Positions 13,961 to 42,138 of a stretch of 64,000 nt of DNA are shown piece by piece. Numbering within the stretch: position 1 is the first letter of the stretch; each line of letters starts with the position of its first letter. The notes beneath the pieces were generated by a model that searched no databases, was not told the DNA's origin, and saw nothing but the letters and a program-made list of their open reading frames with translations. The stretch spans positions 62,001 through 126,000 of the forward strand of contig CAMVJD010000001.1 in NCBI GenBank assembly GCA_947167715.1. The letters run 5' to 3'. This DNA comes from an uncultured Eubacteriaceae bacterium (GTDB lineage: Bacteria; Bacillota; Clostridia; Lachnospirales; CAG-274). A program made the translations under genes and the position numbers.

Positions 13961-15649
13961 GTGGCTTATGTAAAAATCAATCCTGTTAAGAGCGCGGAGC
14001 ATTTAACAAACGCAATAGACTACATCTCTAAAGAATATAAAACAAACAATCAAATATTGGTCGAGAGTTTTCATTGCAGTTTGCTAATTGCCGAAAGAGA
14101 TTTTGCAGTAATCAGAAACCGTGCTATGAAAAAAGGAAATAATGTAGCGTGGCACTTGAAACAGTCCTTTGCGCCCGAAGATAATGTTACACCCGAACAG
14201 GCATTGGAACTCGGCAAGGAACTGATGAAAAGAATGTATCCCAATCATCAATATATCATTGCTACACATATTGACCGAGGGCATATTCATAATCATATTT
14301 TGATAAATTCCGTAAATTTTGAGGACTTTCACAAGCTGCACAGCAATAAAAATACGCTTGAAGAATTACGCGAGAAATCAAACGATATAAGCCGAGAAAA
14401 TGGTCTGTCTGTTATCGAAAAAGACAGTTTAAATCATAAGCAAAGGCTGAAAGAAAACATTGATAAAGCGATAGAAAAAGCAGCAGACTTTGACGATTTT
14501 ATAGCCTTAATGCAAGAGTCGGGATATAATGTAAAACTTGACGGCAAGCACCTTGCTTTTAAAGATGAAAAAATGCAGCGGTTTATGCGTTCTTCGTCCA
14601 TCTCTATTGACTATAAGCCGTCTATAATCAAGCACAGAATATCGACAGAGAAAGAGAATATAACAGGCTCACGGACGATATATGACGATAAACTTTCATA
14701 CCGTTCTGCGCGGAAGAAAATGAAAGCGGAAATTGACAGCTCAATTAAAAAATGTAACAGCTACGAAGAATTTATTGCTGATATGGAACGTAAAGGCTAC
14801 ACCACAAAAGAGGGCAAGCATCTTGCTTTTTTGGGTGTGGGACAAGAGCGGCATATCCGTTGTGATAGTATCGACAAGGAACATTCCTACCGATACAGTC
14901 GAGACGGCATCCGCTATCAGATAGAGCATAGAGAATTATTTGAAAAAATCAATAATTCAAAGCTGAAAAGGGTGCTTGATAAGAGCAAACTTAAAAGCGG
15001 TCTCTATAACTGGGTATCGGGCGAGAACGCCAATGCTAAAATAGCCGCCGATAATTTTATAAGGGATATTATTATAGAGCAGAACGGCGCGGAGCGCGGC
15101 AGCTCATACAACAATTATGTATATTTTATGCAAAATATTTACGGCGCGATGCAAGATAAAATATCGACACAAGAGGAGCAAATAAAAGCGTTGGAACAAC
15201 GGGCAAAGGAATTATCGCAGGGCGTTAAATCTCTGCAAAATTACGCCGAATTTAAGCCCAAAGTTATGAAATACCACCGCAAGGGTGTTAAAAATTTAGA
15301 GGGCGAAGATAAGGCAGATTATAAGTCCTGTTACGGCAAATATAAATATGCCGAGGAGCTTATAAATAAATACGGTTTTGAACATTCAACAATGCAAGAC
15401 TTGAAAAACGAGCTTGCCGATGTGCAGGCACAGCTACAAAAAATAAATGAACAGATAATCGTTGACCGTTTGAACTTTGAAAACTACGAAATTGCACGTT
15501 TTAACTGCGAGAGCAAAGACGGTTGGGGTTATTCGGTCGATGATACACACACCGTTCCCGATGAAACGGAACAGGAACGCAAATCACAGGAACAGGAGCA
15601 ACAAGAGGACGGAGCAAAGAGAAGATTAAGAGACTTCTTCCGAAGATAA
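13961..15649 (+). CDS. relaxase / mobilization nuclease (VirD2/MobA type)
   Basis: MAYVKINPVKSAEHLTNAIDYISKEYKT, WHLKQSFAPEDNVTPEQALELGKELMKRM, HIDRGHIHNHILINSVNF (3H motif). Confidence 0.93.
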   Translation: MAYVKINPVKSAEHLTNAIDYISKEYKTNNQILVESFHCSLLIAERDFAVIRNRAMKKGNNVAWHLKQSFAPEDNVTPEQALELGKELMKRMYPNHQYIIATHIDRGHIHNHILINSVNFEDFHKLHSNKNTLEELREKSNDISRENGLSVIEKDSLNHKQRLKENIDKAIEKAADFDDFIALMQESGYNVKLDGKHLAFKDEKMQRFMRSSSISIDYKPSIIKHRISTEKENITGSRTIYDDKLSYRSARKKMKAEIDSSIKKCNSYEEFIADMERKGYTTKEGKHLAFLGVGQERHIRCDSIDKEHSYRYSRDGIRYQIEHRELFEKINNSKLKRVLDKSKLKSGLYNWVSGENANAKIAADNFIRDIIIEQNGAERGSSYNNYVYFMQNIYGAMQDKISTQEEQIKALEQRAKELSQGVKSLQNYAEFKPKVMKYHRKGVKNLEGEDKADYKSCYGKYKYAEELINKYGFEHSTMQDLKNELADVQAQLQKINEQIIVDRLNFENYEIARFNCESKDGWGYSVDDTHTVPDETEQERKSQEQEQQEDGAKRRLRDFFRR

Positions 15650-15662
15650 GAAAGGATTTTTT

Positions 15663-16232
15663 ATGAAAACAGGAGATAAAATAAAATATTTTAGAGAATT
15701 GCGTGGATTGAATAAAAAAGAACTCGGTATAAAATTAGGGTATTCTCCCTCAACAGCAACCGTTAGAATATCTCAATATGAATATAACAAAAAAAAGCCC
15801 AAGTTGGAAACCCTCTCCAAAATTGCAGAAGTCTTAAATATAGATATATCCGCTTTGGTTGATATAAATATTTCAACCAACATTGAATTTATGCGTGCCT
15901 TGTTTAAAATGGAAGAAAAATACAACTTAAAGACCGAAAAAGACGGCGCAGACTTTATACTGCGGTTTAGTAATTTGGTAGAAAAAAACAAGCAGCTACA
16001 AAATTATTTTGTAGCGTGGCTTGATAAGCAAGAACAGCTTGATTTAGGAGCTTGCAGTAAAAAAGAATATGAATTATGGTGTGCTAAATTTCCCGATGTG
16101 GCAGAAGTTAAAAAGGCTCAACTTGCAGAAAAAGAAAAAGAGTTAGAAATACAAATTGAGAAAATACAAGAAGAACTCGAACGGCAAACCGCTTTGTTAA
16201 AGGCAGTAAAAAACAAATATAGTGAGGTGTAA
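15663..16232 (+). CDS. XRE-family HTH regulator
   Basis: KIKYFRELRGLNKKELGIKLGYSPSTATVRISQYEYNKKKPKLETLSKIAEVLNIDISAL. Confidence 0.85.
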   Translation: MKTGDKIKYFRELRGLNKKELGIKLGYSPSTATVRISQYEYNKKKPKLETLSKIAEVLNIDISALVDINISTNIEFMRALFKMEEKYNLKTEKDGADFILRFSNLVEKNKQLQNYFVAWLDKQEQLDLGACSKKEYELWCAKFPDVAEVKKAQLAEKEKELEIQIEKIQEELERQTALLKAVKNKYSEV

Positions 16233-16238
16233 ATATGA
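16126..16238 (+). repeat. 113-bp exact direct repeat, copy 1 (3' end of first XRE gene)
   Basis: cagaaaaagaaaaagagttagaaat...gtgaggtgtaaatatga, identical to 16716-16828. Confidence 0.95.
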
Positions 16239-16822
16239 CCGTCGGCGAAAAAATAAGATATTATAGGGAACTTAATGGTTTTTCTAAGCGAGAACTCGGA
16301 TTGCGTGCAGGATTTTCATTTTCAACCGCTTCTGTTCGCATTAGCCAGTACGAAAGTGGTTTGATGATACCTCGCGAAGATATAATGTCAAAGATTGCAG
16401 ATGCCTTAAATGTTGATTTATCCGCATTAGCAAATATAAATATTTCAAACGAAGCTGAATTATTACACGTTTTCTTTGAATTAGAAAACAAATATAATTT
16501 AAAAATCGACAAAGTTGATAAGGAATACACGCTGCGTTTTGAGGATTTAAAGGAATGGCACTTGAGATTACAGATGTATTTTGAAGCTTGGCTTAATAAG
16601 CAAAAACAGCTTGACTGCGGTATGTGTAGCAAAAAAGAATATGATTTATGGCGTGGCAAATTTCCCAATGTTGAGGAAGTGAGTATAAACGAAGAAGAGT
16701 TAAAGGCTAAACTCACAGAAAAAGAAAAAGAGTTAGAAATACAAATTGAGAAAATACAAGAAGAACTCGAACGGCAAACCGCTTTGTTAAAGGCAGTAAA
16801 AAACAAATATAGTGAGGTGTAA
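16235..16822 (+). CDS. XRE-family HTH regulator (paralogue of preceding gene)
   Basis: [60 protein letters not shown]. Confidence 0.85.
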
Positions 16823-16828
16823 ATATGA
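16716..16828 (+). repeat. 113-bp exact direct repeat, copy 2 (3' end of second XRE gene)
   Basis: Identical to 16126-16238. Confidence 0.95.
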
Positions 16829-17868
16829 GTAAATATGAGGAAAAAATAAAAAAAGAGGTATTAAAAGATTGGGAAGATTATATAGACTGGCTTTCAAAAA
16901 AATATTGGGGTCGATATGCAGAGTACACTATAAATATGTGTAAGAATTTTGATAGTGACTGTAAAAATTGTGGTAAAAGCATAAGTATATTTAAAAAATG
17001 CCCTGCGTATAAAATGTGTACATCAGATAAATCTCCTTATTTTAATTGCAAAGGTAAAGAAAAAGCGGTTGCGAAGTATTATGGAGAAACACAGTTTAGG
17101 AGTTGCGGCGATGATAGTATTCTTGTTGCTGCGTTCTTTTTTGACGAATTTCGTGCCGAATATGAAAAACAAAAGGAAAACAAACTATTGTTAATAAATA
17201 ATGAAACAACAACGAAAAGCCTTGAAAATGCAAAAGAGCTTTTTTCAAGCGGCAAAATAGATAAAATAGAGGTCGGCACGACAAAGGGCTTGCAGGATAT
17301 ACACAAAGCCTTATTTGACGGCTTATATGATTTTGCGGGCAAAATACGCGAATTAAACATTGCAAAGGGCAATTTCCGCTTTGCGAACAGTCTTTATTTA
17401 AAAGAGGTCTTGGCAGCGGTCGAGAAAATGCCCGAAGATACCTTTGAAAACATCATTGCAAAATACGTTGAAATGAATGTTGCGCATCCGTTTATGGAGG
17501 GCAACGGAAGAAGTACACGCATTTGGCTTGATATGATACTTAAAAAGCGTTTAAACAAGGTTATAAATTGGGCGAATATTGACAAGGAACAGTATTTGCA
17601 GGCAATGGAGCGCAGCCCCATAAACGACCTTGAATTAAGGTTTTTACTGCAACCCAATCTGACCGACAAGGTAAATGATAAAGAGGTTATTTGTAATGGA
17701 ATTAAACAATCATATTATTATGAGGAGTATGAAAAAACGGCAGGCTCGTTTTATTCTGATAGCAATATGAGATACTTAAATAAGGTTATTGACGGTATAG
17801 AGGACGGTACAAGACCGATAGTTGAGCATAATTTGATTGACGATACCACTAACGATAATTATAAATAA
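16825..17868 (+). CDS. Fic/DOC family protein with N-terminal Cys-rich segment
   Basis: Fic motif [12 protein letters not shown] at 17485-17520; [14 protein letters not shown]...[23 protein letters not shown]-terminal. Confidence 0.88.
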
Positions 17869-17978: not shown

Positions 17979-19529
17979 TTAACGTGATTGATTATCCTTT
18001 TTTGGAGCTGATTTATTGTCAAGCTGTTGTGCGGCATCGGCTTTTTTTCGTGCTTCTATCATTTTCGCGGCTCTTTGCGCCCTGTTCATAATAGTGTAGC
18101 CCGAATGTACAGTTTTAGGCTCTGCTGTCTTTTGAACAGCCTGTTCAGCTTGCTTCGGCGGTGTCTGTTGCCCAGGGCGTTGCTCTGGGTATTGTGGGGC
18201 TGCTGCGGAAAAAGTGGTCTCATTGTGAGACACATTTTTCTTTTCGGTCGCAGGCTTCGCCGATGAGCGCGGACTCTTTTCTTTTTGGGCATTGATTTTA
18301 TCCAATGCACTTTTAATGCCGTTTATAGCCTTATTTGCTAATTTTCTTATCGAGGGTAGCTTAATATCTGTCGCGGGCGCAGCCGTAACCGTTCCGTCCG
18401 CAGATATTGTCATTTTGTTTATTTGTGACGATAACGGCACCGTTCCGCTACCACCTACGGAGTCGGCAACCTCTATGCAGTGGCGTTTGGCTTCTATCGC
18501 TTGCAGTTCGTCATTGATAAGACTTTGGGTATCTTCTGCTTTTGAAAAATCGACAGAATTTTTAAGCTCATTCGCTTGCACTTGTAAAATACCTATTGCA
18601 ATATCACATTTTTTTGAACAGTTTAAACTATCCACAAATGCTTTATACTCGCTCATATAGCTATTCAAATTATCTTCCGACATATAAATTTTATCTCGAA
18701 GGTCGGATAAATAAGATATTCTTTCTTTCATCTGTTTATGTACGGATACATCAAAAGAGTGTGTTAAATTATCAAGCTGTTGTTGGTTGAAAAGTACATT
18801 TTCATTTTTAAAACTCGAATAAGAAAGTGTATCTAATAATTCAGATGAAAACATAGCTTTATCAATAGTTATGTTTTTGTTTAAATATTGTAAATGATAA
18901 TTTCTTTCTTCCTTTTCTTTTATCATTATCGCAAGGACAGGGTGTATATCAGTAGCTAAATTTTGAGCTGTACCATTTAACGAGGAAATAGGAATATATA
19001 AATCGGGATTGCTTTGTTCAGTTTTAAAAGCTATCGCACAATTTGCTCTATTTACTATTATATCAAAGGCTTGCTTTCCTTTGTATTTTCCAATGAATTC
19101 AGCTTTTTTTGCGATAGATGTTAATTGAGATAGATTATCCAATTTGTGCTGTGTATAATCAAAAAACATTTTTGTTTGCTGCGCAGTTGCACCCGCAACA
19201 AATGAAATATCATTTAGTAAGCTGGCATCATTTCCAAGTCTTTGGTAGAAATTCAAGGCATTTGTAGATACACTTTTACCTAACACTCTTTTACTATATT
19301 GTAGACTTCGATAATCAAGTCCCGTTAAATGCAAATAATGCTCCTCTGAAAATATAGCTTTTTTTGCACTAACAGTTTGTTCTTGTGTACTTAAATATAG
19401 ATATAATATGTGTTTACCACACAGATTATTGTCATATACCTTCTTTTGCGCCAAAACCCTATCGTATGCCGATTTTATATCGGGATAATTTATAACGCTC
19501 TTTAAATTAGTATTTTTCTTTTTAGGCAT
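17979..19529 (-). CDS. PBECR4-domain-like mobile element protein
   Basis: MPKKKNTNLKS start after AAAGGATAAC; LYLSTQ...EEHYLHLTGLDY...NFYQRLGNDASL; contains in-frame palindrome (KKNVSHNETTF). Confidence 0.6.
   Translation of the reverse strand: MPKKKNTNLKSVINYPDIKSAYDRVLAQKKVYDNNLCGKHILYLYLSTQEQTVSAKKAIFSEEHYLHLTGLDYRSLQYSKRVLGKSVSTNALNFYQRLGNDASLLNDISFVAGATAQQTKMFFDYTQHKLDNLSQLTSIAKKAEFIGKYKGKQAFDIIVNRANCAIAFKTEQSNPDLYIPISSLNGTAQNLATDIHPVLAIMIKEKEERNYHLQYLNKNITIDKAMFSSELLDTLSYSSFKNENVLFNQQQLDNLTHSFDVSVHKQMKERISYLSDLRDKIYMSEDNLNSYMSEYKAFVDSLNCSKKCDIAIGILQVQANELKNSVDFSKAEDTQSLINDELQAIEAKRHCIEVADSVGGSGTVPLSSQINKMTISADGTVTAAPATDIKLPSIRKLANKAINGIKSALDKINAQKEKSPRSSAKPATEKKNVSHNETTFSAAAPQYPEQRPGQQTPPKQAEQAVQKTAEPKTVHSGYTIMNRAQRAAKMIEARKKADAAQQLDNKSAPKKDNQSR
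18210..18238. repeat. SHNE palindrome copy 2 (in CDS, encodes NVSHNETTF)
   Basis: aaaagtggtctcattgtgagacacatttt. Confidence 0.9.
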
Positions 19530-19549
19530 AATTGTTATCCTTTCAAAAC

Positions 19550-19740
19550 GGAAAAAGCCGTCAGTACAAACTGACGGCTCTGTTTCCTTTAAATGCTGAT
19601 TTTTATAGTCGCTCTGGACGACCAACTTTTAATAGTTGCCTTACGGCGCGAACCTCAGAGTTTCGGATACGACAGTCTCCAAACAGAAGATGCCCCCTAA
19701 AGTGTCAGCCCACTAATAAGAGCAGCGGACCACTCTTATC
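19550..19740 (-). ncRNA. candidate structured ncRNA or attenuated leader, ~190 nt
   Basis: Promoter at 19747-19775; hairpins TGATAAGAG-tggtccgctg-CTCTTATTA, GCC-GTAA-GGC, GTCG-tccagag-CGAC; terminal hairpin AGCCGTCAGT-ttgt-ACTGACGGCT followed by TTTTT. Confidence 0.55.
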
Positions 19741-19746
19741 ACTTAT

Positions 19747-19775
19747 AGTATATCCGATTATTGCGGTTTTGTCAA
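19747..19775 (-). promoter_or_regulatory. sigma70-type promoter
   Basis: TTGACA - 17 nt - TATACT on the minus strand. Confidence 0.8.
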
Positions 19776-19909: not shown

Positions 19910-22900
19910 TTACAGACAATCATCGCCCTTTTTAGGTGGTTCGGGAGGTTCTTGCTGTGCTGCTATTTTGTCGTTTATTTCTTTCAGCTTTTCTCTCTTT
20001 TCCTCAAGCTCTTTGAGTTGTGGGAATGTTCGGGAAAGCTGTTTTTCAGCCTGTTGGATTTTCAGCTGTGTGCTTTCGACCTTATACTGTGCCGATGCAA
20101 GCTCCTTTTTGAGTGTTGAACCGAGTAAATGGTCAACTCTTTGGATATTGCGCACACCGTCAACCGTACCAAGCTCGACCTTGTACTCATCCGCGCCCTG
20201 CACTTTGAGAACGTAGTGATTTGAAACGCTGCTATAATACGCTTTTAAGTCAAAGCCTTTATAACAGCCTATTTCAACATCTTTTGTGCCGCAGCCGTAA
20301 TAAGGCTTTATTGTGCGGCAAGCAGCTAATAAGGCTTTTTCGGCTTCTGCTCGTTCGGTGTAGGTCTTTCCTTGTATCTCGATGCCTGCAAACTTGTTGT
20401 CGGAGTTTTTGTGCTTTTCAGCCGTTTCAACGTCCTTTGAAAGTTTTTCAATATCGTGTTTGGCTTTCTCGATAGTGAGTGGAAAGTCCTTGTTGAGTTT
20501 GTTTTTGAGTGCATTTTGCCCTCTGCAAAAGGAATTGTAGTTAGTCTCCAATTTCTTTAAGGATATATCCAACATCATCTGCTCACGCAAGAGCGGATTA
20601 TCCATTGCAAGTGCTTTAATCTCTGCATAGCTCAATACGCTGTCATCAACATCTTGTATGCTTCTTTCGGGTGTTTTGGAAGTCATAATCTGCGATATAG
20701 ACTTCTGCTTATTCTCGACAAGCTGATACGAATAGCCGTCAAAAGTACCCGAAGCAACGTAATTAAAGATACTTACATTTTTATTCAAGTTGCCCTGTCT
20801 AATGATGCGACCGTTACGCTGTTGGAGGTCAGCAGGCTTCCACGGGCAATCCAAGTGATGTACTGCTTTTAACAGCCTTTGGCAGTTTACACCCGTGCCA
20901 AGTTTGCTTGTTGAGCCAAGCAGTATCCTTATCTCGCCATCGTTTACTTTGCGCATAACCTCTGCTTTCTTTTTGTCGCTAACATCGTGTATCGCCAAAA
21001 TCTGCTCTTTCGGTATACCATATTGCTCGCTTAACTTGCTTTCAATATCTCTGTATACGCTGAATTCGCCGTTATTTTTGGGTGTAGACAAGTCGCAAAA
21101 GATAATCTGCGTTCCCTTGTAGTCCTTGCTTTCTTCCCAAATTTTAGCAACATTCGCAATACACAAATTGACTTTGCTGTTCGGGTCATCGGGTAATGTC
21201 GGGTCAAGAAGCCTTTGGTCTAATGCTAACTTTCGTCCGTCATTTGTAATACGCAGCATATTGTCCTCGGTCGGCTCAACAAGCCTATTTCGCACATCAT
21301 TTGCACGCTCGGCAAGACCTTGTAACAGTTCTTTTTGTTCGGGGCTTGCAGGTGTATCAATAACCTTAAATTCGGGAGTCGGCATATTGGGGATATTCAA
21401 CACATCAGCGGTCTTAATATCTGCTGTTTCCTTGAACATTGTTGTTAATTCGGGTACATTATCAAATTGCGAAAATCGAATTTTTTGCTGAAACCCCGTA
21501 CTTTCGGGCGTTAGTTCCATACCCGCTTCAATTTTGCCGAAGTTGGCAGCCCAAGCATCGAAGTTCTCCAAACCATTTGCCCGCAGCACATCATTCTGCA
21601 AATATTTCTGCATAGTGTACATTTCGGCTATCCCGTTACTAATAGGCGTTCCTGTGCTGAAAACCGTACCTTTTGAGCCTGTCAGCTCATCAAGGTAACG
21701 GCATTTCATATACATATCCGTTGCTCTTTGACTCTCGACACCCGCATTTATACCCGCAACGTTTCTACCCATTTTTGTGGAGAAAAACAGGTTTTTATAT
21801 GCGTGTGCTTCGTCAACAAAAATCTTGTCAACACCTAATTCCTCAAATGTCAAGGCTCTGTCCTTGTCCTCGGAGTTTATAAGTGTTGTCAGCTTGCGTT
21901 CAAGCTGTTTTTTCTTTGTTTCAAGCTGTTTTACGCTGAAACCTCTGCCTTTGTCCTCGCGCTTGATTTTGTCAAGCTCGTTTGTTATGCTGTCAATTTC
22001 CTTGCGCATATAGTTTTCTTGATACTCTTGCGACATAGGTATTTTCTTAAATTGCTCGTGAGACATAACAATAGCATCATATTCGCCCGTAACAGCCTTT
22101 GCGAAAAAGGTATTTCTATTCGCCTTTTCAAAGTCTTTTTCCGTTGCAACAAGTATGTTTGCAGACGGGTAGAGATGCATAAACTCTTTTGCGAACTGAT
22201 TTAAAATTGCTTTGGGTACGGCGTATAAGCTCTTATGGAACAATCCAAGCCTTTTGCCCTCCATACCCGCAGCCTGCAATGTAAATGTTTTGCCTGCACC
22301 GACTTCGTGCGCAATCAAAGCGTTTCTATTGCTATAAAGAATACGCGCAATCGCATCTTTTTGATGCTTTCGCAACTCAATGTTAGGGTTAATGCCCGAT
22401 AAAACAAGGCTGTTGCCGTTATACTCACGCGGCACAACTGAATTGAATTTTTCGTTGTATATCTGAACGAGGTCGTTTGCTCTGTCCTCATCGGCATATA
22501 TCCAATCAGCGAACATTTCCTTAATCATTTCTTGTTTTGCCTGTGCTTCGGCTGTTTTTTCTTTGTTTACATACCGCTTTTCTGTAACAGGGTCTTTGTC
22601 ATAGACCGTTACAAGTGTCTGATTGAGACACGCTTCAATCAGTTCATAGGCACTTTTATACGCTGTTCCGTAGGTAGAGCGAGACGGAACATCATCTTTA
22701 CCTATAACATTTTTGTTGCTGATGCCGTATGTTGCTGTTGTTGGGTCATAAGCAACGGCTATCGTTGCCCAATTTCTGCCCCTTGCCGCAAACGGGTCAT
22801 CATTGCTCTTATATTCATAATCTGAACGACTATATGTAGGAGTTTCAAGCAGTTCATAAATGAACTGTTCAAAATACTTTGTCGGTATCCACGTTGAGCC

Positions 22901-25900
22901 GAGCTGTGCCATAATCTCGTCCGATGTAAGGTCAATGGGCTGCACCGTTTTTAACGCATCCACATTGATTTTATAGCTTTCATCAGCTACCGAACTTTCA
23001 ATAGCTGTTTCGAGTTTTTTACGCACATTGCCCGACAAGTATTCGTCTCTTGTTTCATATTGCTCCGTTTCGGGATTTTTGAAAATCTGCCCGTCTGCCT
23101 GCAATGAAGAAATAACATATTCTTCACTTTGATTGCATAGCTTCGCCATAAACTCAATATCGACCCTTGCCTTTTCGCCAAGCGAAACGACAAGTGCTTC
23201 GGCAGGCGTATCAACCTTTTCGACTGGCGCGGGAACAGACACCGTCCTTTTTGTGAAAATATCGGCTTTTCGTTCCAACTTGCCGTCATTGTCAATAAAT
23301 TCCAATGATTTCACAATGTTTTTTCTGTCGTCTTTGGCGAGAAGATTTATGCTTTTATCAATAAGCCCGTGTTGCTTTGTAAAATCATCATATTTGATAT
23401 TCAATTCTGCCTGCAAATCAGCTATTCTGCTGTCGGGTGTTCCAAAACGGCTCTGTTCCTCAATGAGTGTTTTAAGAGTTTCGGCAATGCTTATAAGCTC
23501 AATAGTCTTTACTTCATCGCTTGACCTCTTAAAAGTCTGCTTTTCCATTGTGTCATTTTCGCGATAGTAAACTTCGCCATCAATGACGGATAAACAGAAA
23601 TTAGGGTATTTTGACGGGTCTATTTCATTGGTTTTTTCCGCTGAAATATCTCTGTCAAAAATGTTCTCATTGTGAGACACATTTTCTATTTTGCCGCTGA
23701 CTGTTTCCAATGCAGCGTTAATACTCTCCGCAAGCGTTTCGTTTTCTTTGGCATCACAAGTAATACCAAAGCCATACGCATTTGAAACTACCTTAATATC
23801 GCCCGCAACAGCTTCGGGGTGCGACTTGAAATAATCGTTGATACGGATTGTTTCGCCGCTTTCCCGTGCTTTCTCGGTGTACAGACTATCGTCTATCTCG
23901 CTTGCGTTTACCCATTCGGGCATATCTTGTGTTAAGTCTCTCGGTTCTGATCTTTTTTGCAAAAAGAGAATGTCCGAGACGACTTCCGTTCCCGCATTTG
24001 ACTTAAATGCCGTGTTCGGCAGTCTGACCGCACCCAAGAGGTCTGCACGCTCTGCGAGATATTTTCTAACGCTGCTGTCCTTTTTATCAAGCGTACCGCT
24101 TGATGTGATAAAAGCTACAACACCGCCTGCGTGTACCTTATCCAAGGCTTTTTTGAAAAAATAATCGTGGATAAGTTCGCCTTTTTTAAAGGTTTTATCC
24201 GATAATCGTACTTGTCCGAAAGGCACATTGCCGACAGCCAAGTCAAAAATATCGCTTTGGAAATTCGTTTTTTCAAGCCCGCGTATTTGTATTTTCGCAT
24301 CGGGATATAGCTGTTTAGCTATTCTTCCAGATATATCGTCAAGCTCAACACCGTAAAGGGTGCTGTTCTTTTCGATATTTTCGGGCATTGCTCCGAAAAA
24401 GTTACCGATACCCATTGCAGGCTCAAGGATTTTGCCGCCCTCAAAGCCCATTTTTTCAAGTGTTGAATACATAGCCTTGATTATTTCGGGCGAGGTATAA
24501 AATGCGTCTGTTACGGAAGAACGCGCAGACTCATATTCGCTGTCGGTAAGCAATTCTTTTAATTCCGTGTACTCTTTCGACCAACCTTTTGACGGGTCTG
24601 TGTCAAAGGCTTCGGAAAGACCGCCCCAACCGACATATTTTGACAAAATCTCCTGTTGTTCTTTTGTCGCGGGAACATTTAAGCGTTCAAGCTCCTTTAA
24701 GGTCTTTATCGCTTCAATGTTTGCACGGAATTTTTCTCTCGGTGTGCCTACACCGAGTTCAGTATCCGTTATTTTGAAATTTTCTGCAACTCTGTCGGGG
24801 TTGCCAAGATAATTGCCCTCGGCGGCAAGTTTAAATTTATCAACATTCTCCGTTATAACAAAATTGCCGTCCTTTTTGCTTATGCCTATATCATCGGGAT
24901 ATACGCCATACATTGCAGTAACGGTATATTCTGTGTTCTTGTAGATAAACGTATCTCCAAGAGTTATATCGGCAGCGTTGATATGCTTTATTTCCGCTTC
25001 GGGTGCAGGCTCTTTTATAGGCTCTGCGCTGTCAATGATTTTTTCTTGTTCGGATAAGTCTTTTTCAACCACAAGCGGTTTATCTCCAAGCTCATTAAGA
25101 AGATTTTTCTTCCAATGACCTATGAAAGACCTTACTTGTATAGGCGCAGTCTTATCGGTATTTTCAAAGCCCATTCTAAAATCGCTGTCAATCTCTGTTA
25201 TTTTGAGTTTTTCGCCGCCAAGCTCAATAATATCCCCGACAACAAGTTTGTCGGCAATATCGCCGTTTATAAAGGCTCTTGCTTCGTCAAGACTTGTACA
25301 GAATTGTCCTCTGCCTGCATAATTATAAGTCTCGCCATTGTCAATGCTCGTCATAATCTGCACATTACAGGGATAATCGGCATTATCGGTACTTTTGATA
25401 ACATACTTTGTGCTGTTATCATAGCCGTTTATTTCCTCTGAAAAATCGTTCTCATTGTGAGACACATTTTCTGCTTCGGGTGCGGCTTGTACGCTTGTGC
25501 TTGCTTTTTGGGCATCTATTTGGCTTTCAGCCTTATCAAGTGCATTGCCAAGATACTTGCCCTCTTGCAATAATGTGTCCCTGTTGATGTTTTCATAAAT
25601 GGGTTGCGGAAAATCTATTGTATCGTTATCATAGGTTATAGTTATGTCATTTTCGGTTTGACCCGATAATTCATAAACTTCACATTCGCCACCTCGATAA
25701 TAGAACATATCGCCGACTTTGATGCTGTCGCGGTCGGGCGTATTATTTTGAGGTATATTTTCCGTTTCGGTCGCAGGTGGAATAAATGCAATTTCATCAC
25801 TCATTTCATTGACAATATAAACGGTTTTGTTTCGGTCGTTTAATGCTTCGTCCAAAAACTTTTTAACGATTTCTTTGGCTTCATCCAAATCAATGCTAAT

Positions 25901-28900
25901 ATCTATCGGCATACTATTTACTCTATCATAATATGCAGTTCTGATTTCGCCCGCTTTAAATTCAAAAAAAACATCATCTTCTACTTTTTTAACATCAATT
26001 CCATCGCGTTTTTCGTAAGAAACGGTATTTAACTTGATTGTTGAGTCTTTTAAATCAACTTTAAAACCGTATTCGGGTATATCAATAACCAAATCTTTTG
26101 GTTGAATAGTATAGTCGATATTTCTATCGTCTAATATTGTTTTGATATACGCTTCATCATCGGCAAGAACAGATAAATATGAAACATCGTAAAAGCTCTC
26201 TTTGGAAATGTCGAATTTATATCCGTTCAACTCCAAGTGTTCCGTTAAATCGGCAATTTCATTGTCGTTGCCTTTAAGATTAAATACAGTTCTATCTTCT
26301 TCCTTTTCCTGCACAGGCGTAACAAACTGCTCAATAACGCCGTTTTCAGCCAAAGCAAACGCAAAAGCAGCTATTTCTCTGTCGCTTGAAAGAATATCCC
26401 CGCGAAGTTCATTAAAATCTCCAGTAAAAACAGGGTTTTTCTTGATAAAATCGTCTCCAATGCTTACGGCGAGGTCATAGCCCTCAACGGCATTGTTGCC
26501 CTGCTCATAGAGCTTGTTATAAAATTCTGTATAGCTGTCAAAGACTGCCGAAAGCTCTTTATCCTCTGAAAAATCGTTCTCATTGTGAGACCCTTTTTCA
26601 GCTTCATAGCTCGGTGTTTCCTCTGCCGTATTTGTATTCTGTACAAATAAGTCAAAAGCCTGTTCGACAAGCGTTTCGTCAGCGAGAATATCATAAAATG
26701 CCTTTTTAATTCTGTTTTCTTTGACTTGGTCTCCTTGCCAACCGTGAATACTATTTTCGTTAAATGCTGTTTTTATTACATCAAGTCTATCCGCGCCGAC
26801 AACATTTTCAAGTGCCTGTTCAAAATCAGTTTTTTCTGCATTTTGAACGGAGCTGTTAAGCATATCTGCGGCGATAGCTTTTGCCTGCTCCAAGTCTGTA
26901 ATGCCTTGATTATTCAGCGCATCGGCTATTTGTATACACAAATCTTTATCCTCGATATATGACATTGCCATTTCACGATTGCCCGAATGGTCAACCTTGT
27001 TTTTGTCGATAATTCGATACACGGAATAAAGCATTGTATCTCCGACAGGGTTTGATGTATAGTCCCAATCGTTAATCGGTTCTTTGACGGCTTCACGCGG
27101 TTCATCGTGAATTTCAACGCCATAACCGTTTTCTTTGAGCCTGTCGATAAAGCGGTCTAAAGCAAAACTCGGTATTCCTGTCATTTTCTCTCCGTTTCGC
27201 AGAGATGAATGTAATTCAAGGACATCAACCATAATCTGTGCTTCTTCTCCAAACGCTTCGTAAAAGTCTCCGAGTTTGTATAAGTTTATAATTTGCTTAT
27301 TGGGAACAGATATTTCCTGCTCATTAAAAGTGGTCTCATCGTGAGACACTTTTTCAGCGGTCGAAAGTTCGGCTTGCTTTTCAGCTAATGATATTTCTTT
27401 TATATAATCTCCGTTTTCAGTTAAAACAATATGACCGACTTTATCGGTAAAACCATAATTATCGCTTTCAAGTTCAAATAACTTTTTGCCGTTTTCCTCA
27501 AAACTATCTACAACGCTCCAAGAACCGTCATTACCAAGTAAATCAAGGGATAACCCTTTTGTATTTTCATCAATGTGCAGTTCTTCTCGTTTTTCGTTGT
27601 ATGCTTTGAGCAAGTCGTTCCAATCTTTGCAGCCGTCATTACCGCATAATTCAAAAATCGTGTCATCTGTAAGCTGATGAGCGGGTATACCAAGCGTTTC
27701 TTGCATTTTTTGTGCAAAGTTCCTGCCTGCTTCGTCATTGTCAGTTGCGACAAGAGCATTTGCAGGTGTAATACCATAACGCTCAAGCGTGGTATTTACA
27801 ACTTTATCTTTTAAGCCGCCCATAGACACAAGCAGCGCATCTGTATCTCTGTGCAAAGCATAAAAACTCATCGCATCTATGCCTGCTTCAAAGAAAATAA
27901 CTTTTTCGGGCTTATCTGCGCCTGTTGGGTTAATGGTAAAGCCATTTCCTCCGCGCTCGGTCGTTTGTTTGAAACGGTGGCTTGTATTTGTACTCGTCAG
28001 CTCTGCGCCCGTCAATTCGCCGTTCTCGTCAAATATCTTAAATACGGCATTTCCGCGCATATCTTGTGCTATACTGCCGTTCTCGATAAGAGATTTTACT
28101 ATATCTTCGGGTATACCGCGTGTTTTCGTTAAATACGCATAAGTTCTATTGGTCTTGTTGTCAAGCTCGTTAGGAAGAACAACGTGCGGCTCATCGGCTT
28201 GCGGCTGTTCTTGCTTTTCGGTCTGAACGGGTGTGACCGTACCGATATTATGAAAATCGGTATATCCCGCAAAGCTCAATAAATCCTCTAATGCCTGTCG
28301 ATATTCCATACCGAGGACTTCCATAGCAAAATTTACGGCATTGCCGCCTTTGTTTTGACTATTCCAATAGTAGCTGCTATCCTTAATACGCATACTATCG
28401 TGTTCAAGCATTGTATATTCATTAGAACCGACACGTTTTGTCTGTATGCCCTTGCTGTTCAAGTAATCAACGATATTTATTCTTTTTGCCGCTTCAACAA
28501 GTTCATCGGAAATGCGGTTGCTTTCCTTTTTGGGTGTGTCTTTTTTGCGTGCTTCGGTCACGCGCGTGACTATTTCATCAAGTTTGCTCTTGTCGGCAAA
28601 GGAAATAGTTATAGTTGCGCTATTGCCGTCTATAACACCGCTGTATGGTATGCCGTCCTTTTCAAGTTCGGCAGCAATAGCTCTTGCGGTCGGTGTAACA
28701 TAAGTATTAAAGTTCTTGCGCTTGATTTTAGCATAGGCAGTATTGCCTATAATCTCGCGCCCGTCCTTTGTTTGATTGCTTTTTTCAGCCTGCGGCTTGT
28801 CAATCTCGGCTTCTTTTTGCTGTTCCTGCTCAACAGCGTGGAAATGCCTTTCAATATCCCTTAAAACGGTTTTTGAAGCGACATTTATCGTGTCGGCAAG

Positions 28901-31426
28901 GACAGGGAATTGGCTGCGGTCTATGCTCGATACAGCATCAAGGTTTGCGGCAGTATAATCAATGCCGCAACGTGTGCAAGCTATAAGCATTGCACTTTCT
29001 ATCGCAAAGTCCTTGTACTCCTGCGGCATTTGCTTAATATTGTTATTAGTATCGAGCGCCGTATTTACAAGCTCTCTGATACTGTTTTCCGAAACTCGGC
29101 TTAAATCGGGCTGCCAAAGTTTATGTTTGCTGTTTGTCTGTGAAATATCATAAAGATATTCGAGCTTTTTATTGCCGTTGTTATCTTGAATAACAACGGG
29201 TACGCCTTTTGCGCCGCGATTGATACGCGCACCGAGCCGTCTTGACCAAACGCCAAACTCTGCCATAGCTGTTGCGTTCGGCATTTGGCTTGCCATAATA
29301 AGTGTTTCGTTAAACGAATACTTATATGTATATGCTGCGCTCTTGCAGTATTCAGCCCAATTTTCGCCCGATGCCGTAAACTTTCGTAACGCATCGGACT
29401 GTATTTTTTCTACTTCATCAACGGTAAATCTTGTGTTTCGTGCGGGCGTTTCGACAAGCTTACTGTCCTTGTTTTCCGTTTCGGCAAAAGTGGTCTCATT
29501 GTGAGACACTTTTTCTGCTTCGGGTGCAGACGGTACAATTTCAGCCTTATATCCCCATTCGGCAAGACCTTTAACGGCATTGTCATAGTCAGCCTGCGGA
29601 ATAACAACTTTATTTATGCCGTCATTCAAATCCATTTTTATACGCAGCGCGAGAGATGCTTTGTCAGCTTCATCTCCATACGCTTCGTAAAAATCGCCAT
29701 TGATACTAAAATGTATTGTATTTGTATAAACAGGCTCTTTTTCTTCGATAACATTTTCTATCTCGACGGGTCTTTCGTGGAATATTTCTTCTATTTTCAG
29801 CTGTTCTATCAACTTGTCAATAGCAGCGTTAATATTTTTGCGTTCCTCGCCTGTCGGATATGTGCAGGCAGCACCACCGCCCATTTCTGCGTGACCGCAT
29901 AAATAGTCGCTTTTTTCGGGTGCGAGCTTATCCATTACATAGCAAGCAAAAGCGCGGGCAAAAAGCTCAACTTCGCTTGCCCAATAACCGTGTCCCGCCT
30001 TGCTGTGCGCTGCATCGAGCTTGCGGGCGTTTTTATAATACTCTGTATAACTGCGGTTGTTGTCGTATTTTATTGCAGACATAACATCGCCAAATGCAAG
30101 ACGAGCGTTGTAGTCTGCGGTGGTGGGGTTTAACTGAAAATGTATTGAGCTTGTTGATAAACGGCTCTCGCTCATAAAAGAGTTTTTCAAGCCATATTGC
30201 CTTGCTATAAAAAAGTCGAGAGCGTGTCCCCATTCGTGCGCAAGAGTGCCTGCACCGCGCATTTTGGTCAAATTTATTACGTTCTGCGCAGGCTCGTAAT
30301 GTGCCAGGGCAGAACTATGACCGCGCGCGCCGAAAGCTATTGCAAGCTGACCGCCTAACGATACATCTTTGTCGTCAACACCGAGCGCAGCAGCCAAGTC
30401 TTTGAACGAGTCAAAGCACATATTAAGGTTTGCCTGTCTGTCGTTCTGATTGAGCCATTCGCCAAACTGTCCTCCGCGCATTGCAAATTCGGTTAAGAAG
30501 TCCTCGCCCTCAATATCCTTATCGGCGCGATAGTCTTTACCCGTGCGCTCGATGTGTTCAAGCTGCGGAGGTGTCAGCTTTGTTTTCCTTGACTTTGTTG
30601 TCGGGTCTTTTTCAAGCTCCGTTTCATATTCAAGCGCAAATGCTTTTGCCGCTTCTTCGGTCTCAAAATTATTTCCAATAATGGTGTAAGGGTACGAATT
30701 TGTCATAACAAAGAATTTTCCGTTTTCCCAATTTTCGGGACGGCAGAAATCCTCGGTCTGATTATATAAATAGCGTGTGCCTATATCGGAAACAGCAAGT
30801 CTGTTATCTTCTGCTGCATCAAAACTGACATTGTTGTTATACTTGAGTATGTCATACTTTGACAATTTCTTTTCATCATCGCTGAAAAGAAATTTTTTCG
30901 CATCTATATCCAAATCAAGTAAATACATTGATGTATATCGGCTTATTGCACGGCGCAGTTTGGTCGAAAATGCGCCTGCTGTGTTTGAACCAAACAAGCC
31001 GCTGCGATTTTCGTCCAAATGCTTGAAATTAGTCAGCAGCAGGCTGTAAAAACCCCTTATATCATCGTCTGTTTTGATAAGTTTGCATATTTCACGCAGC
31101 TGTGAGACAGCATCGGTATATATATCTATATTGTCATTGCCTTTAGTGTCATAGACATAGGAATAACTATCGGGAGCCTTTGTCGGGATAGAGTCATAAA
31201 TAGCCTTAATGAAAAAGGCGCAGCGTTTGGTCAGACCATCATCAACAAGTTTCTGATAATTGGGTCTTTCCCAAATGTTGGTTTTGGTCGCAAGGTTTTG
31301 TCTTTCGTACTCCGTCCAATTTGCTATATCCTCAAGGTTTAACTTGCCTTTTTTTGTGTAGAGGTCTTTTCTTGCACCCTCTATCTTTTCGCCAAAATCT
31401 TCAATTTTTTTCTTCTCGTCAGCCAT
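19910..31426 (-). CDS. giant polyvalent ICE protein: zincin metallopeptidase, ArdC-N-like, primase/TOPRIM, MutS-I-like, N6 DNA methylase, SNF2-like helicase
   Basis: LAHEWGHALDFF; ENWAEYCKSAAYTYKYSFNETLIMASQMPNATAMAEFGVWSRRLGARI; INIVDYLNSKGIQ...NKGGNAVNFAMEVLG; FFEAGIDAMSFYALH; LYKLGDFYEAFGEEA; EPAMGIGNFFGAMP...AVGNVPFGQ; HEVGAGKTFTLQ...KIFVDEAHAYKN. Confidence 0.9.
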   Translation of the reverse strand: MADEKKKIEDFGEKIEGARKDLYTKKGKLNLEDIANWTEYERQNLATKTNIWERPNYQKLVDDGLTKRCAFFIKAIYDSIPTKAPDSYSYVYDTKGNDNIDIYTDAVSQLREICKLIKTDDDIRGFYSLLLTNFKHLDENRSGLFGSNTAGAFSTKLRRAISRYTSMYLLDLDIDAKKFLFSDDEKKLSKYDILKYNNNVSFDAAEDNRLAVSDIGTRYLYNQTEDFCRPENWENGKFFVMTNSYPYTIIGNNFETEEAAKAFALEYETELEKDPTTKSRKTKLTPPQLEHIERTGKDYRADKDIEGEDFLTEFAMRGGQFGEWLNQNDRQANLNMCFDSFKDLAAALGVDDKDVSLGGQLAIAFGARGHSSALAHYEPAQNVINLTKMRGAGTLAHEWGHALDFFIARQYGLKNSFMSESRLSTSSIHFQLNPTTADYNARLAFGDVMSAIKYDNNRSYTEYYKNARKLDAAHSKAGHGYWASEVELFARAFACYVMDKLAPEKSDYLCGHAEMGGGAACTYPTGEERKNINAAIDKLIEQLKIEEIFHERPVEIENVIEEKEPVYTNTIHFSINGDFYEAYGDEADKASLALRIKMDLNDGINKVVIPQADYDNAVKGLAEWGYKAEIVPSAPEAEKVSHNETTFAETENKDSKLVETPARNTRFTVDEVEKIQSDALRKFTASGENWAEYCKSAAYTYKYSFNETLIMASQMPNATAMAEFGVWSRRLGARINRGAKGVPVVIQDNNGNKKLEYLYDISQTNSKHKLWQPDLSRVSENSIRELVNTALDTNNNIKQMPQEYKDFAIESAMLIACTRCGIDYTAANLDAVSSIDRSQFPVLADTINVASKTVLRDIERHFHAVEQEQQKEAEIDKPQAEKSNQTKDGREIIGNTAYAKIKRKNFNTYVTPTARAIAAELEKDGIPYSGVIDGNSATITISFADKSKLDEIVTRVTEARKKDTPKKESNRISDELVEAAKRINIVDYLNSKGIQTKRVGSNEYTMLEHDSMRIKDSSYYWNSQNKGGNAVNFAMEVLGMEYRQALEDLLSFAGYTDFHNIGTVTPVQTEKQEQPQADEPHVVLPNELDNKTNRTYAYLTKTRGIPEDIVKSLIENGSIAQDMRGNAVFKIFDENGELTGAELTSTNTSHRFKQTTERGGNGFTINPTGADKPEKVIFFEAGIDAMSFYALHRDTDALLVSMGGLKDKVVNTTLERYGITPANALVATDNDEAGRNFAQKMQETLGIPAHQLTDDTIFELCGNDGCKDWNDLLKAYNEKREELHIDENTKGLSLDLLGNDGSWSVVDSFEENGKKLFELESDNYGFTDKVGHIVLTENGDYIKEISLAEKQAELSTAEKVSHDETTFNEQEISVPNKQIINLYKLGDFYEAFGEEAQIMVDVLELHSSLRNGEKMTGIPSFALDRFIDRLKENGYGVEIHDEPREAVKEPINDWDYTSNPVGDTMLYSVYRIIDKNKVDHSGNREMAMSYIEDKDLCIQIADALNNQGITDLEQAKAIAADMLNSSVQNAEKTDFEQALENVVGADRLDVIKTAFNENSIHGWQGDQVKENRIKKAFYDILADETLVEQAFDLFVQNTNTAEETPSYEAEKGSHNENDFSEDKELSAVFDSYTEFYNKLYEQGNNAVEGYDLAVSIGDDFIKKNPVFTGDFNELRGDILSSDREIAAFAFALAENGVIEQFVTPVQEKEEDRTVFNLKGNDNEIADLTEHLELNGYKFDISKESFYDVSYLSVLADDEAYIKTILDDRNIDYTIQPKDLVIDIPEYGFKVDLKDSTIKLNTVSYEKRDGIDVKKVEDDVFFEFKAGEIRTAYYDRVNSMPIDISIDLDEAKEIVKKFLDEALNDRNKTVYIVNEMSDEIAFIPPATETENIPQNNTPDRDSIKVGDMFYYRGGECEVYELSGQTENDITITYDNDTIDFPQPIYENINRDTLLQEGKYLGNALDKAESQIDAQKASTSVQAAPEAENVSHNENDFSEEINGYDNSTKYVIKSTDNADYPCNVQIMTSIDNGETYNYAGRGQFCTSLDEARAFINGDIADKLVVGDIIELGGEKLKITEIDSDFRMGFENTDKTAPIQVRSFIGHWKKNLLNELGDKPLVVEKDLSEQEKIIDSAEPIKEPAPEAEIKHINAADITLGDTFIYKNTEYTVTAMYGVYPDDIGISKKDGNFVITENVDKFKLAAEGNYLGNPDRVAENFKITDTELGVGTPREKFRANIEAIKTLKELERLNVPATKEQQEILSKYVGWGGLSEAFDTDPSKGWSKEYTELKELLTDSEYESARSSVTDAFYTSPEIIKAMYSTLEKMGFEGGKILEPAMGIGNFFGAMPENIEKNSTLYGVELDDISGRIAKQLYPDAKIQIRGLEKTNFQSDIFDLAVGNVPFGQVRLSDKTFKKGELIHDYFFKKALDKVHAGGVVAFITSSGTLDKKDSSVRKYLAERADLLGAVRLPNTAFKSNAGTEVVSDILFLQKRSEPRDLTQDMPEWVNASEIDDSLYTEKARESGETIRINDYFKSHPEAVAGDIKVVSNAYGFGITCDAKENETLAESINAALETVSGKIENVSHNENIFDRDISAEKTNEIDPSKYPNFCLSVIDGEVYYRENDTMEKQTFKRSSDEVKTIELISIAETLKTLIEEQSRFGTPDSRIADLQAELNIKYDDFTKQHGLIDKSINLLAKDDRKNIVKSLEFIDNDGKLERKADIFTKRTVSVPAPVEKVDTPAEALVVSLGEKARVDIEFMAKLCNQSEEYVISSLQADGQIFKNPETEQYETRDEYLSGNVRKKLETAIESSVADESYKINVDALKTVQPIDLTSDEIMAQLGSTWIPTKYFEQFIYELLETPTYSRSDYEYKSNDDPFAARGRNWATIAVAYDPTTATYGISNKNVIGKDDVPSRSTYGTAYKSAYELIEACLNQTLVTVYDKDPVTEKRYVNKEKTAEAQAKQEMIKEMFADWIYADEDRANDLVQIYNEKFNSVVPREYNGNSLVLSGINPNIELRKHQKDAIARILYSNRNALIAHEVGAGKTFTLQAAGMEGKRLGLFHKSLYAVPKAILNQFAKEFMHLYPSANILVATEKDFEKANRNTFFAKAVTGEYDAIVMSHEQFKKIPMSQEYQENYMRKEIDSITNELDKIKREDKGRGFSVKQLETKKKQLERKLTTLINSEDKDRALTFEELGVDKIFVDEAHAYKNLFFSTKMGRNVAGINAGVESQRATDMYMKCRYLDELTGSKGTVFSTGTPISNGIAEMYTMQKYLQNDVLRANGLENFDAWAANFGKIEAGMELTPESTGFQQKIRFSQFDNVPELTTMFKETADIKTADVLNIPNMPTPEFKVIDTPASPEQKELLQGLAERANDVRNRLVEPTEDNMLRITNDGRKLALDQRLLDPTLPDDPNSKVNLCIANVAKIWEESKDYKGTQIIFCDLSTPKNNGEFSVYRDIESKLSEQYGIPKEQILAIHDVSDKKKAEVMRKVNDGEIRILLGSTSKLGTGVNCQRLLKAVHHLDCPWKPADLQQRNGRIIRQGNLNKNVSIFNYVASGTFDGYSYQLVENKQKSISQIMTSKTPERSIQDVDDSVLSYAEIKALAMDNPLLREQMMLDISLKKLETNYNSFCRGQNALKNKLNKDFPLTIEKAKHDIEKLSKDVETAEKHKNSDNKFAGIEIQGKTYTERAEAEKALLAACRTIKPYYGCGTKDVEIGCYKGFDLKAYYSSVSNHYVLKVQGADEYKVELGTVDGVRNIQRVDHLLGSTLKKELASAQYKVESTQLKIQQAEKQLSRTFPQLKELEEKREKLKEINDKIAAQQEPPEPPKKGDDCL
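23658..23685. repeat. SHNE palindrome copy 3 (in CDS, ENVSHNENIF)
   Basis: aaaatgttctcattgtgagacacatttt. Confidence 0.9.
25442..25470. repeat. SHNE palindrome copy 4 (in CDS, ENVSHNENDF)
   Basis: aaaatcgttctcattgtgagacacatttt. Confidence 0.9.
26570..26598. repeat. SHNE palindrome copy 5 (in CDS, EKGSHNENDF)
   Basis: aaaatcgttctcattgtgagacccttttt. Confidence 0.9.
27326..27354. repeat. SHNE palindrome copy 6 (in CDS, EKVSHDETTF)
   Basis: aaaagtggtctcatcgtgagacacttttt. Confidence 0.9.
29486..29514. repeat. SHNE palindrome copy 7 (in CDS, EKVSHNETTF)
   Basis: aaaagtggtctcattgtgagacacttttt. Confidence 0.9.
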
Positions 31427-38400: not shown

Positions 38401-38683
38401 TTTCTTCAATCCTTTCGTTATATACTTTGTTTGCTGTTTCCAACAATTCATCGGGTATGTGTGCGACCGATTTTGTGTCTGTTCTGCCGAGCAAGTAATC
38501 AACGGAACAGTTTAGATATTCGGCGATTGCTTGTATTTTATCAATAGACGGTACTTGACCTTGCTTTATGCGGTCAAATAAACCTTTGCTTAAATTTGCA
38601 TTCTGTAACAGTTTATTCTTTGATAGCCCTTGATTTTGGGCTAATTCAACGGTTCTTGTTTCCAGTAAAGGTAAATCAAACAT
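38384..38683 (-). CDS. XRE-family HTH protein between parA and parB
   Basis: GLSKNKLLQNANLSKGLFDRIKQGQVPSIDKIQAIAEYLNCSVDYLLGRTD. Confidence 0.85.
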   Translation of the reverse strand: MFDLPLLETRTVELAQNQGLSKNKLLQNANLSKGLFDRIKQGQVPSIDKIQAIAEYLNCSVDYLLGRTDTKSVAHIPDELLETANKVYNERIEENGSRK

Positions 38684-39458
38684 TTGTACCTCCTATTTCC
38701 TGTGCTAATGCGCCGTATGCTTCGGCTACCTTTGAACGCTTATCATACTTGAAAATGCTTTCGCCTGTTGTACTGCTTTCCTCTGCCTTGACCGAGCGCG
38801 GGATAGTCGTTTCAAATATCTTGACTTGTGCGCCGTAGCTGTTTTTGAGCAGTTCCATAATTTCCTTTGCGTAGTTTGTGCGCTTGTTGAGCATTGTTAT
38901 TAAAATGCCCTCTATTTCAAGTTTTGGATTGAGCTGTCTTTTTACATTGCCTATCGTCTTTATAAGCTCCTGCAAGCCGATAACGGGCAAATACGAAGTC
39001 TGTACGGGTATCAATACTGTATCTGCCGAGGACAACACATTTACTGTTACCATACCCAACGAGGGTTGACAGTCAATTATTATGTAGTCATAATCTGACT
39101 TGACTGTTTCTATGTACTGTCGCAGTATAAGCTCTCTGCCCATTATGGAAACTAATTGCAGCTCCAAAGAAGAAAGTTTCAAGTTCGAGGGGATAAGGTC
39201 AACGCCCTCCGCGTGATGTATAATTCCCTTGTTCTTAATATCGTTCTGCTCGTTTATGACATCGGCAAAGATGTTTGCCAAAGTGTAGCTTTGAGCATCG
39301 GGGTCGAAACCGAGGGCAGCAGTTAAACTGCCCTGCGGGTCTCCGTCTATAAGAAGTACCTTGTTACCGAGATTTGCTAACCCTATGCCGAGGTTAGCGG
39401 CGGTTGTGGTCTTGCCGACACCGCCTTTTTGATTTGCGATTGCTATAATTTTACTCAT
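38676..39458 (-). CDS. parA: ParA-family partition ATPase
   Basis: IAIANQKGGVGKTTTAANLGIGLA; LLIDGDPQGSLTAALGF; YIIIDCQPSLG. Confidence 0.95.
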   Translation of the reverse strand: MSKIIAIANQKGGVGKTTTAANLGIGLANLGNKVLLIDGDPQGSLTAALGFDPDAQSYTLANIFADVINEQNDIKNKGIIHHAEGVDLIPSNLKLSSLELQLVSIMGRELILRQYIETVKSDYDYIIIDCQPSLGMVTVNVLSSADTVLIPVQTSYLPVIGLQELIKTIGNVKRQLNPKLEIEGILITMLNKRTNYAKEIMELLKNSYGAQVKIFETTIPRSVKAEESSTTGESIFKYDKRSKVAEAYGALAQEIGGTNV

Positions 39459-39476
39459 TTTGTTATCTCCTTTGCT

Positions 39477-42109: not shown

Positions 42110-42138
42110 AAAAGTGGTCTCATTGTGAGACACATTTT
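42110..42138. repeat. SHNE palindrome copy 12 (5' UTR)
   Basis: aaaagtggtctcattgtgagacacatttt. Confidence 0.9.

Follow-up and report, generated by a model that had tools for sequence, protein, structure and literature searches.

A structured RNA ahead of a PBECR4 gene as the probable antitoxin of a type III-like module on an integrative conjugative element

Architecture of the locus

The subject of this work is a structured RNA of about 190 nt, encoded on the minus strand (19554..19741) of a 64-kb stretch of DNA from an uncultured Eubacteriaceae bacterium (contig CAMVJD010000001.1; the whole stretch of 64,000 nucleotides is called the window), and its possible role as antitoxin of the PBECR4-domain protein encoded directly after it. 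The promoter (19747..19775, minus strand) consists of the -35 box TTGACA (19775-19770), a spacer of 17 nt and the -10 box TATACT (19752-19747), and agrees with the consensus at 11 of 12 positions; the 5' end of the RNA, near 19741, is deduced from it. Promoters of this grade are not rare (a scan of both strands of the 64 kb gives n=11), and the one at this locus is convincing because most homologues have the same promoter before the same conserved RNA block, at a distance of 33 nt in the window RNA and of 26-35 nt in most members of the RNA family described below as type A. An earlier note, made from the letters of the sequence, had proposed this promoter and a folded RNA of about 190 nt behind it, and both hold: the fold of the 195-nt RNA reaches -72.1 kcal/mol, compared with -52.05 kcal/mol (standard deviation 4.31) for shuffled sequences (z -4.65), and 0 of 200 shuffles were as stable. 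No plausible open reading frame fills the RNA, in agreement with that note. It had not recognised the class of the RNA either, and in a scan of the window RNA against Rfam no family reaches threshold, including drum (RF02958) and RF03085; low-scoring matches to BTnc060, RcsR1 and Pistol were dismissed as far below threshold.

The terminator hairpin and T run that had also been described are present. This intrinsic terminator (19554..19581, minus strand) has a stem of 12 pairs, 6 of them G-C, followed by the run TTTTTCCGTTTT, and 24 nt separate its end from the ATG of the PBECR4 gene (19529-19527), with the ribosome-binding site of that gene, GAAAGGAT, at 19537..19544 of the same strand.

The downstream gene (17979..19529, minus strand) encodes a protein of 516 aa, which is assigned to PBECR4 by a Pfam match (PF18813, E-value 2.9e-11), by alignments and by a structural model. 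The domain is N-terminal (residues 30-211) and corresponds to a predicted ribonuclease (RNase) of BECR fold with a conserved HLTG motif; the model of the C-terminal 280 residues is of low confidence. PBECR is described as a predicted RNase with a catalytic histidine (Iyer et al. 2017, PMC5512222). As far as the alignments indicate, residues of HLTG and of a PNT motif would make up the active site of PBECR4; the window protein has HLTG, but Ser-Ser in place of the Thr found in the PNT motif of its relatives. The search of this protein against Pfam returned PBECR4 only and no domain of the ToxN, CptN or TenpN families. Solved ToxN and CptN gave no sequence match and no significant fold match to PBECR4, and PADLOC and NCBIfam yielded nothing convincing for the PBECR4 proteins. 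A solo PBECR4 protein (locus L074) was modelled by AlphaFold2 with a mean predicted local distance difference test score (pLDDT) of 91.9, and this model has two significant matches in a viral structure library.

PBECR4 loci and the type A RNA family

A BLAST search with the window RNA, covering 61 relatives and 392 genomes from the order, found no close homologue, the matches being promoter look-alikes before transfer RNA, ribosomal RNA and protein genes, together with a chance match in miaA. No match was obtained in plasmids, phages and viral contigs, and a single-sequence covariance model of the window RNA (R1) produced one weak match, located at a PBECR4 locus. With the full-length downstream protein as query, the matches within its own family were all weak, and neither the viral contigs nor the GTDB species genomes gave a relative. 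In the absence of a close homologue of the RNA, the downstream gene (PF18813) was therefore traced instead. RNA-like regions behind homologues of the giant gene that lies upstream of the window RNA (L019 and L020) were set aside, as they seem to belong to a different element. These structured regions of two related genomes (L019 3680-3930 and L020 3690-3890) stand between the giant gene and a gene whose product is predicted to be secreted, share the motifs GGGCGTGT, CTGCAGATTG, GTTTAGCCAA and TTTGCAAAT, and have no Rfam match.

The PF18813 search found PBECR4 genes in 31 of 295 genomes of the order and in 23 of 341 of the class, and further loci were taken from GTDB genomes, plasmids and phages, so that 71 loci were examined in all. 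At nearly every one of them the upstream region shows the same arrangement: a promoter, a structured RNA, a terminator and the PBECR4 start. A terminator-like hairpin lies ahead of the start in 47 of the 71 PBECR4 genes versus 28 of 184 control genes; the strict definition overlooked many AT-rich or long-loop terminators, and a looser one was applied to genes and controls alike. The RNAs are of type A at approximately 34 loci (the window locus being counted among them by its motifs), drum (RF02958) at 24 and of other kinds at 13. Three of the drum calls (L072, L104 and L109) lie just or clearly below the Rfam gathering score and a fourth, L102, rests on near-identity to L101.

The loci examined come from other genera and families, from Enterococcus plasmids and from one phage. 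Type A RNAs are widespread, standing before PBECR4 in numerous gut bacteria, on enterococcal plasmids and in a phage, and none of those scanned against Rfam matches a family. L077 has a second type A RNA, which precedes a broken PBECR4 gene. The 13 remaining loci include L065, where a type A RNA is located 3' of PBECR4, L067 and L097, where no RNA was found, and L064 and L071, where two tandem H-type pseudoknots upstream of PBECR4 were judged by eye. The RNAs of L064 and L071 represent a third type, with GGTC-loop-GACC and second stems of 7 bp (for instance GGAACAG/CUGUUCC), which to the eye is strongly ToxI-like. PBECR4 is present on 76 Enterococcus plasmid records; on the vanA plasmid pEfm741160-vanA (L122) its RNA is of type A and scores 69 bits, and on pKUB3006-2 (L125) PBECR4 and a drum RNA adjoin an AbiH gene.

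Among 28 PBECR4-bearing genomes, 21 of the 27 drum matches lie directly before PBECR4. The other 6 belong to one genus and have no adjoining PF18813 match, the downstream sequence having been read for 5 of them and the sixth lying at a contig edge. In two genomes of one genus, near-identical orphan copies (L144-L148) have no PBECR4 gene downstream, and such copies are possibly solitary antitoxins. The source of the drum RNA is reportedly a paper of 2017. In the open-access papers searched PBECR4 is not mentioned by that name and no function is given for the drum RNA, and an earlier description elsewhere is possible.

The structure of the type A family was derived from an alignment of 24 RNAs. 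It consists of a closing helix, P1, and two repeats, each combining one arm hairpin with one H-type pseudoknot, whose hairpin has the form GUUG-loop-CAAC, the first loop being a single base and the third A-rich. The beginning of repeat 2 is the pairing partner of loop 1 (CGGG/CCCG, CGAG/CUCG, CAGG/CCUG, GGAG/CUCC, UGAG/CUCA) and the beginning of repeat 1 that of loop 2 (CGGA/UCCG, CAGA/UCUG), and therefore the RNA closes head to tail. The proposed pairs are formed in 95.8% of cells, versus 22-46% (maximum 46.4%) when the partner is slid; the structure was drawn from the same sequences, which biases this percentage towards it, and two-sided changes are the stronger evidence. Such changes occur at 23 of 32 pairs, in 127 cells compared with 40.3 in shuffles, and all four pairs of pseudoknot S2a show compensatory changes. 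RNAalifold independently recovers P1, both arms, S2a and one S1. The earlier note had looked to covariation in homologues for a decision, and in the type A family it is strong. The covarying pairs (P1, arms and pseudoknots) are confined to the core of the RNA and none of them touches the terminator, which lies outside the alignment.

Assignment and proposed function of the window RNA

The window RNA shares both ends and the last hairpin of the type A RNAs. Its conserved 5' block, GGGCTGACACT (19701..19711), contains the 5' strand of P1, GCUGA (19709-19705), and its 3' block, AAAAATCAGC (19595..19604), contains an A-rich loop and the 3' strand UCAGC (19599-19595); all these features are on the minus strand. 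With the position-specific scoring matrix of the 24 type A RNAs the closing blocks NNGCTGACAC..AAAAATCAG score 35.0 bits, the members scoring 23-36; no other site of the window comes within 6 bits of this value and the best of 3000 shuffles reaches 22.8. The last hairpin, GUCG-UCCAGAG-CGAC (19608..19622), is the counterpart of the second pseudoknot hairpin of type A, GUUG-GCRGA-CAAC. The module was defined as a 4-bp stem, a CRGA loop, a short gap and AAAATYAR, and the window has it at a single place, as GTCG-TCCAGAG-CGAC-TATAAAAATCAG. Of its 48 matches in 1.1 Mb, 47 fall in type A RNAs, the window RNA and overlapping loci included, and the remaining one is a chance match on the reverse strand of L059.

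Between these blocks the likeness is partial. A 5' hairpin, UGAUAAGAGUGG..CUGCUCUUAUUA (19714..19741), stands where most type A relatives have one of other sequence. UCUG (19684..19687) is the candidate 5' strand of S2b, by analogy with the type A structure, with CAGA of the last loop (19616-19613) as its partner; CUCUG (19660-19656) could alternatively pair with CAGAG (19616-19612), and neither pairing is significant alone in the window sequence. The hairpin UUUGGA..UCCGAA (19662..19683) is possibly the counterpart of hairpin a of type A. The divergent stretch GGTTCGCGCCGTAAGGCAACT (19634..19654) occupies the place of the first pseudoknot of the relatives, which is unrecognisable here. It could form the stem with a GUAA tetraloop that the earlier note had pointed out (GCC 19647-19645, GUAA 19644-19641, GGC 19640-19638), although in the minimum-energy fold the stretch pairs elsewhere.

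The closing blocks, the last hairpin, the promoter spacing and the neighbouring gene agree, and for this reason the RNA is placed in type A. A full two-repeat structure was rejected, the score with the complete model being too low (8.6 bits). We conclude that it is, to judge by these motifs, a type A RNA that has diverged, its first pseudoknot and its second arm having apparently been lost or changed.

The RNA is taken as the antitoxin of PBECR4 because of its type III anatomy and because of the AbiF precedent considered below, and the window RNA is probably the antitoxin of a type III-like toxin-antitoxin module on an integrative conjugative element. One promoter would give a short, highly folded RNA that mostly ends at the terminator, and occasional read-through would supply the messenger RNA (mRNA) of PBECR4, a predicted metal-independent endoribonuclease. 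The RNA, as a closed pseudoknotted scaffold kept in excess, would bind the nuclease and block its toxicity; the cell would be safe until transcription stops, by phage attack or by loss of the element, and the nuclease would then be released. A maintenance or phage-defence role fits the element setting, the Enterococcus plasmids and the AbiH neighbour on pKUB3006-2.

Several observations weigh against this proposal. The full type A model (R2) gives the window RNA 8.6 bits and an E-value of 4.1 over the 64 kb, whereas the next weakest members score 69-98 bits; the alignment to the model (19592-19713) is nevertheless in the correct register. The interior of the RNA, that is, the first pseudoknot and the second arm hairpin, is unrecognisable, perhaps because the RNA is decayed or specialised. 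The protein shares about 25% identity with its relatives and has a long additional region fused to it. Besides, Foldseek found no significant match for PBECR4 among solved structures, and its RNase activity is a published prediction. The unrecognisable interior and the divergent protein lend themselves to the explanation that a former type A antitoxin and its toxin have degenerated and no longer function, and the loss of some residues conserved among type A PBECR4 proteins agrees with it. Such decay is quite unlikely, as the promoter, both closing blocks, the last hairpin, the terminator and the ribosome-binding site are intact, the 516-aa frame is open with its conserved HLTG, and the fold is far more stable than those of shuffles.

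The RNA could also be a cis-acting leader, either a riboswitch or an attenuator responding to a protein, which would control the PBECR4 gene through its terminator and would not act on the protein. The terminator directly precedes the ribosome-binding site, and a possible antiterminator would arise if GGCUGAC, from the 5' strand region of P1, paired with GUCAGUU of the terminator. The riboswitch-like attenuator suggested in the earlier note is nonetheless unlikely: the family covaries, within the aligned core, in P1, arm hairpins and pseudoknots and in nothing that involves the terminator, the type A RNA of L065 stands downstream of PBECR4, six drum RNAs of one genus have no adjoining PBECR4 gene, and the same protein family is served by two or more unrelated RNA architectures. 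That PBECR4 and the RNA form a working ribonucleoprotein, in which the RNA directs cleavage rather than only inhibiting it, is very improbable; proteins of the AbiF family, themselves partnered by an RNA, have been connected with the origin of the RNA-guided Cas13 (PMC12373285), but type A RNAs have no spacer-like variable segment and the variation of their loops only preserves internal pairing. The earlier note had further offered a stand-alone small RNA and an antisense copy-control RNA. The former, for which the RNA's own promoter and terminator speak, is the nearest of the three readings proposed there, whereas the comparative evidence makes the RNA a partner of PBECR4; the latter lacks support, with no adjacent replication gene and no target overlap. 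That an independent RNA of either kind lies beside PBECR4 by chance is scarcely credible, as the family follows PBECR4, and not replication genes, over many genera, plasmids and a phage.

It seems plausible on balance that the antitoxin proposed here belongs to a large class of RNA-protein toxin-antitoxin modules, as yet undescribed, whose PBECR4 nucleases are checked by at least two unrelated RNA architectures (type A and drum) and which travels on conjugative elements, on resistance plasmids of enterococci and on phages, the window carrying a reduced RNA with an enlarged toxin protein. If this is true, it gives an immediate hypothesis for the drum RNA and for a Pfam nuclease family known by prediction only, RNA-antitoxin systems reach past the ToxN and AbiF protein families, one toxin family uses several unrelated RNA folds, and a possible maintenance or defence module is present on conjugative elements and on a vancomycin-resistance plasmid. 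The type A pseudoknots lead to clear predictions about assembly.

The surrounding element and known systems

Upstream of the RNA lies the gene of a 3838-aa multidomain, polyvalent-type protein of a conjugative element (19910..31426, minus strand), and another genus (L120/L060) has the same succession of giant gene, RNA and PBECR4, the type A RNA of L120 being canonical (98 bits). At 15663-17868 there are two adjoining, similar helix-turn-helix regulators followed by a Fic/DOC gene, and a relaxase gene (13961-15649) adjoins this group. The near-palindrome TCTCACAATGAGA is repeated at 21 sites between 17879 and 61162 with at most one mismatch, where 0.08 are expected (for example 18218-18230, 29494-29506 and 42118-42130), in the context GAAAAxTGTCTCACAATGAGACnACTTTT. 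Within genes, those of the PBECR4 and giant proteins included, its in-frame translation is VSH(N/D)E(T/N)xF, and it also occurs between genes; for a 15-base version, all 10 matches in the genome fall in the window. It may serve as a dispersed site for partition or for a regulator, or may be a palindromic element. A ParA-like gene is located at 38679-39476.

The PBECR domains of polyvalent proteins are likewise predicted BECR-fold RNases, and solo copies on mobile elements have been noted (PMC5512222); the part of that source consulted proposes mRNA or CRISPR RNA as targets and makes no mention of an RNA partner. The drum RNA, with promoter and terminator, takes the same place before PBECR4 at 24 of the 71 loci, and differs in that the window RNA does not match its model (RF02958), in being listed as a small RNA gene and in its orphan copies in one genus. 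Type III systems (ToxIN, CptIN, TenpIN) are recognised by a single promoter, a repeated RNA, a terminator that sets the ratio of RNA to toxin and an endoribonuclease gene (PMC5086642). The window locus has the same order of promoter, RNA, intrinsic terminator and toxin gene, and a repeated, pseudoknotted RNA is also found in the type A family, which resembles CptI (PMC5086642) in its two repeats, its first loop of one base and its A-rich loop. On the other hand, loop 2 of type A pairs with the start of repeat 1 and closes the RNA on itself, and the toxin is PBECR4 (PF18813) and not ToxN; lying outside the ToxN family, it does not make the module a member of ToxIN. The RNA of the AbiF system (RF03085, RCd22) likewise has its own promoter (SigA) and a terminator before the protein gene, whereas protein and RNA are unrelated to the PBECR4 module and the window RNA has no RF03085 match. 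In Clostridioides difficile this RNA acts in cis and in trans, neutralising the toxic AbiF protein by direct binding (PMC12373285). It is thus an experimental precedent outside the ToxN family for an unrelated toxin using the same plan (PMC12373285).
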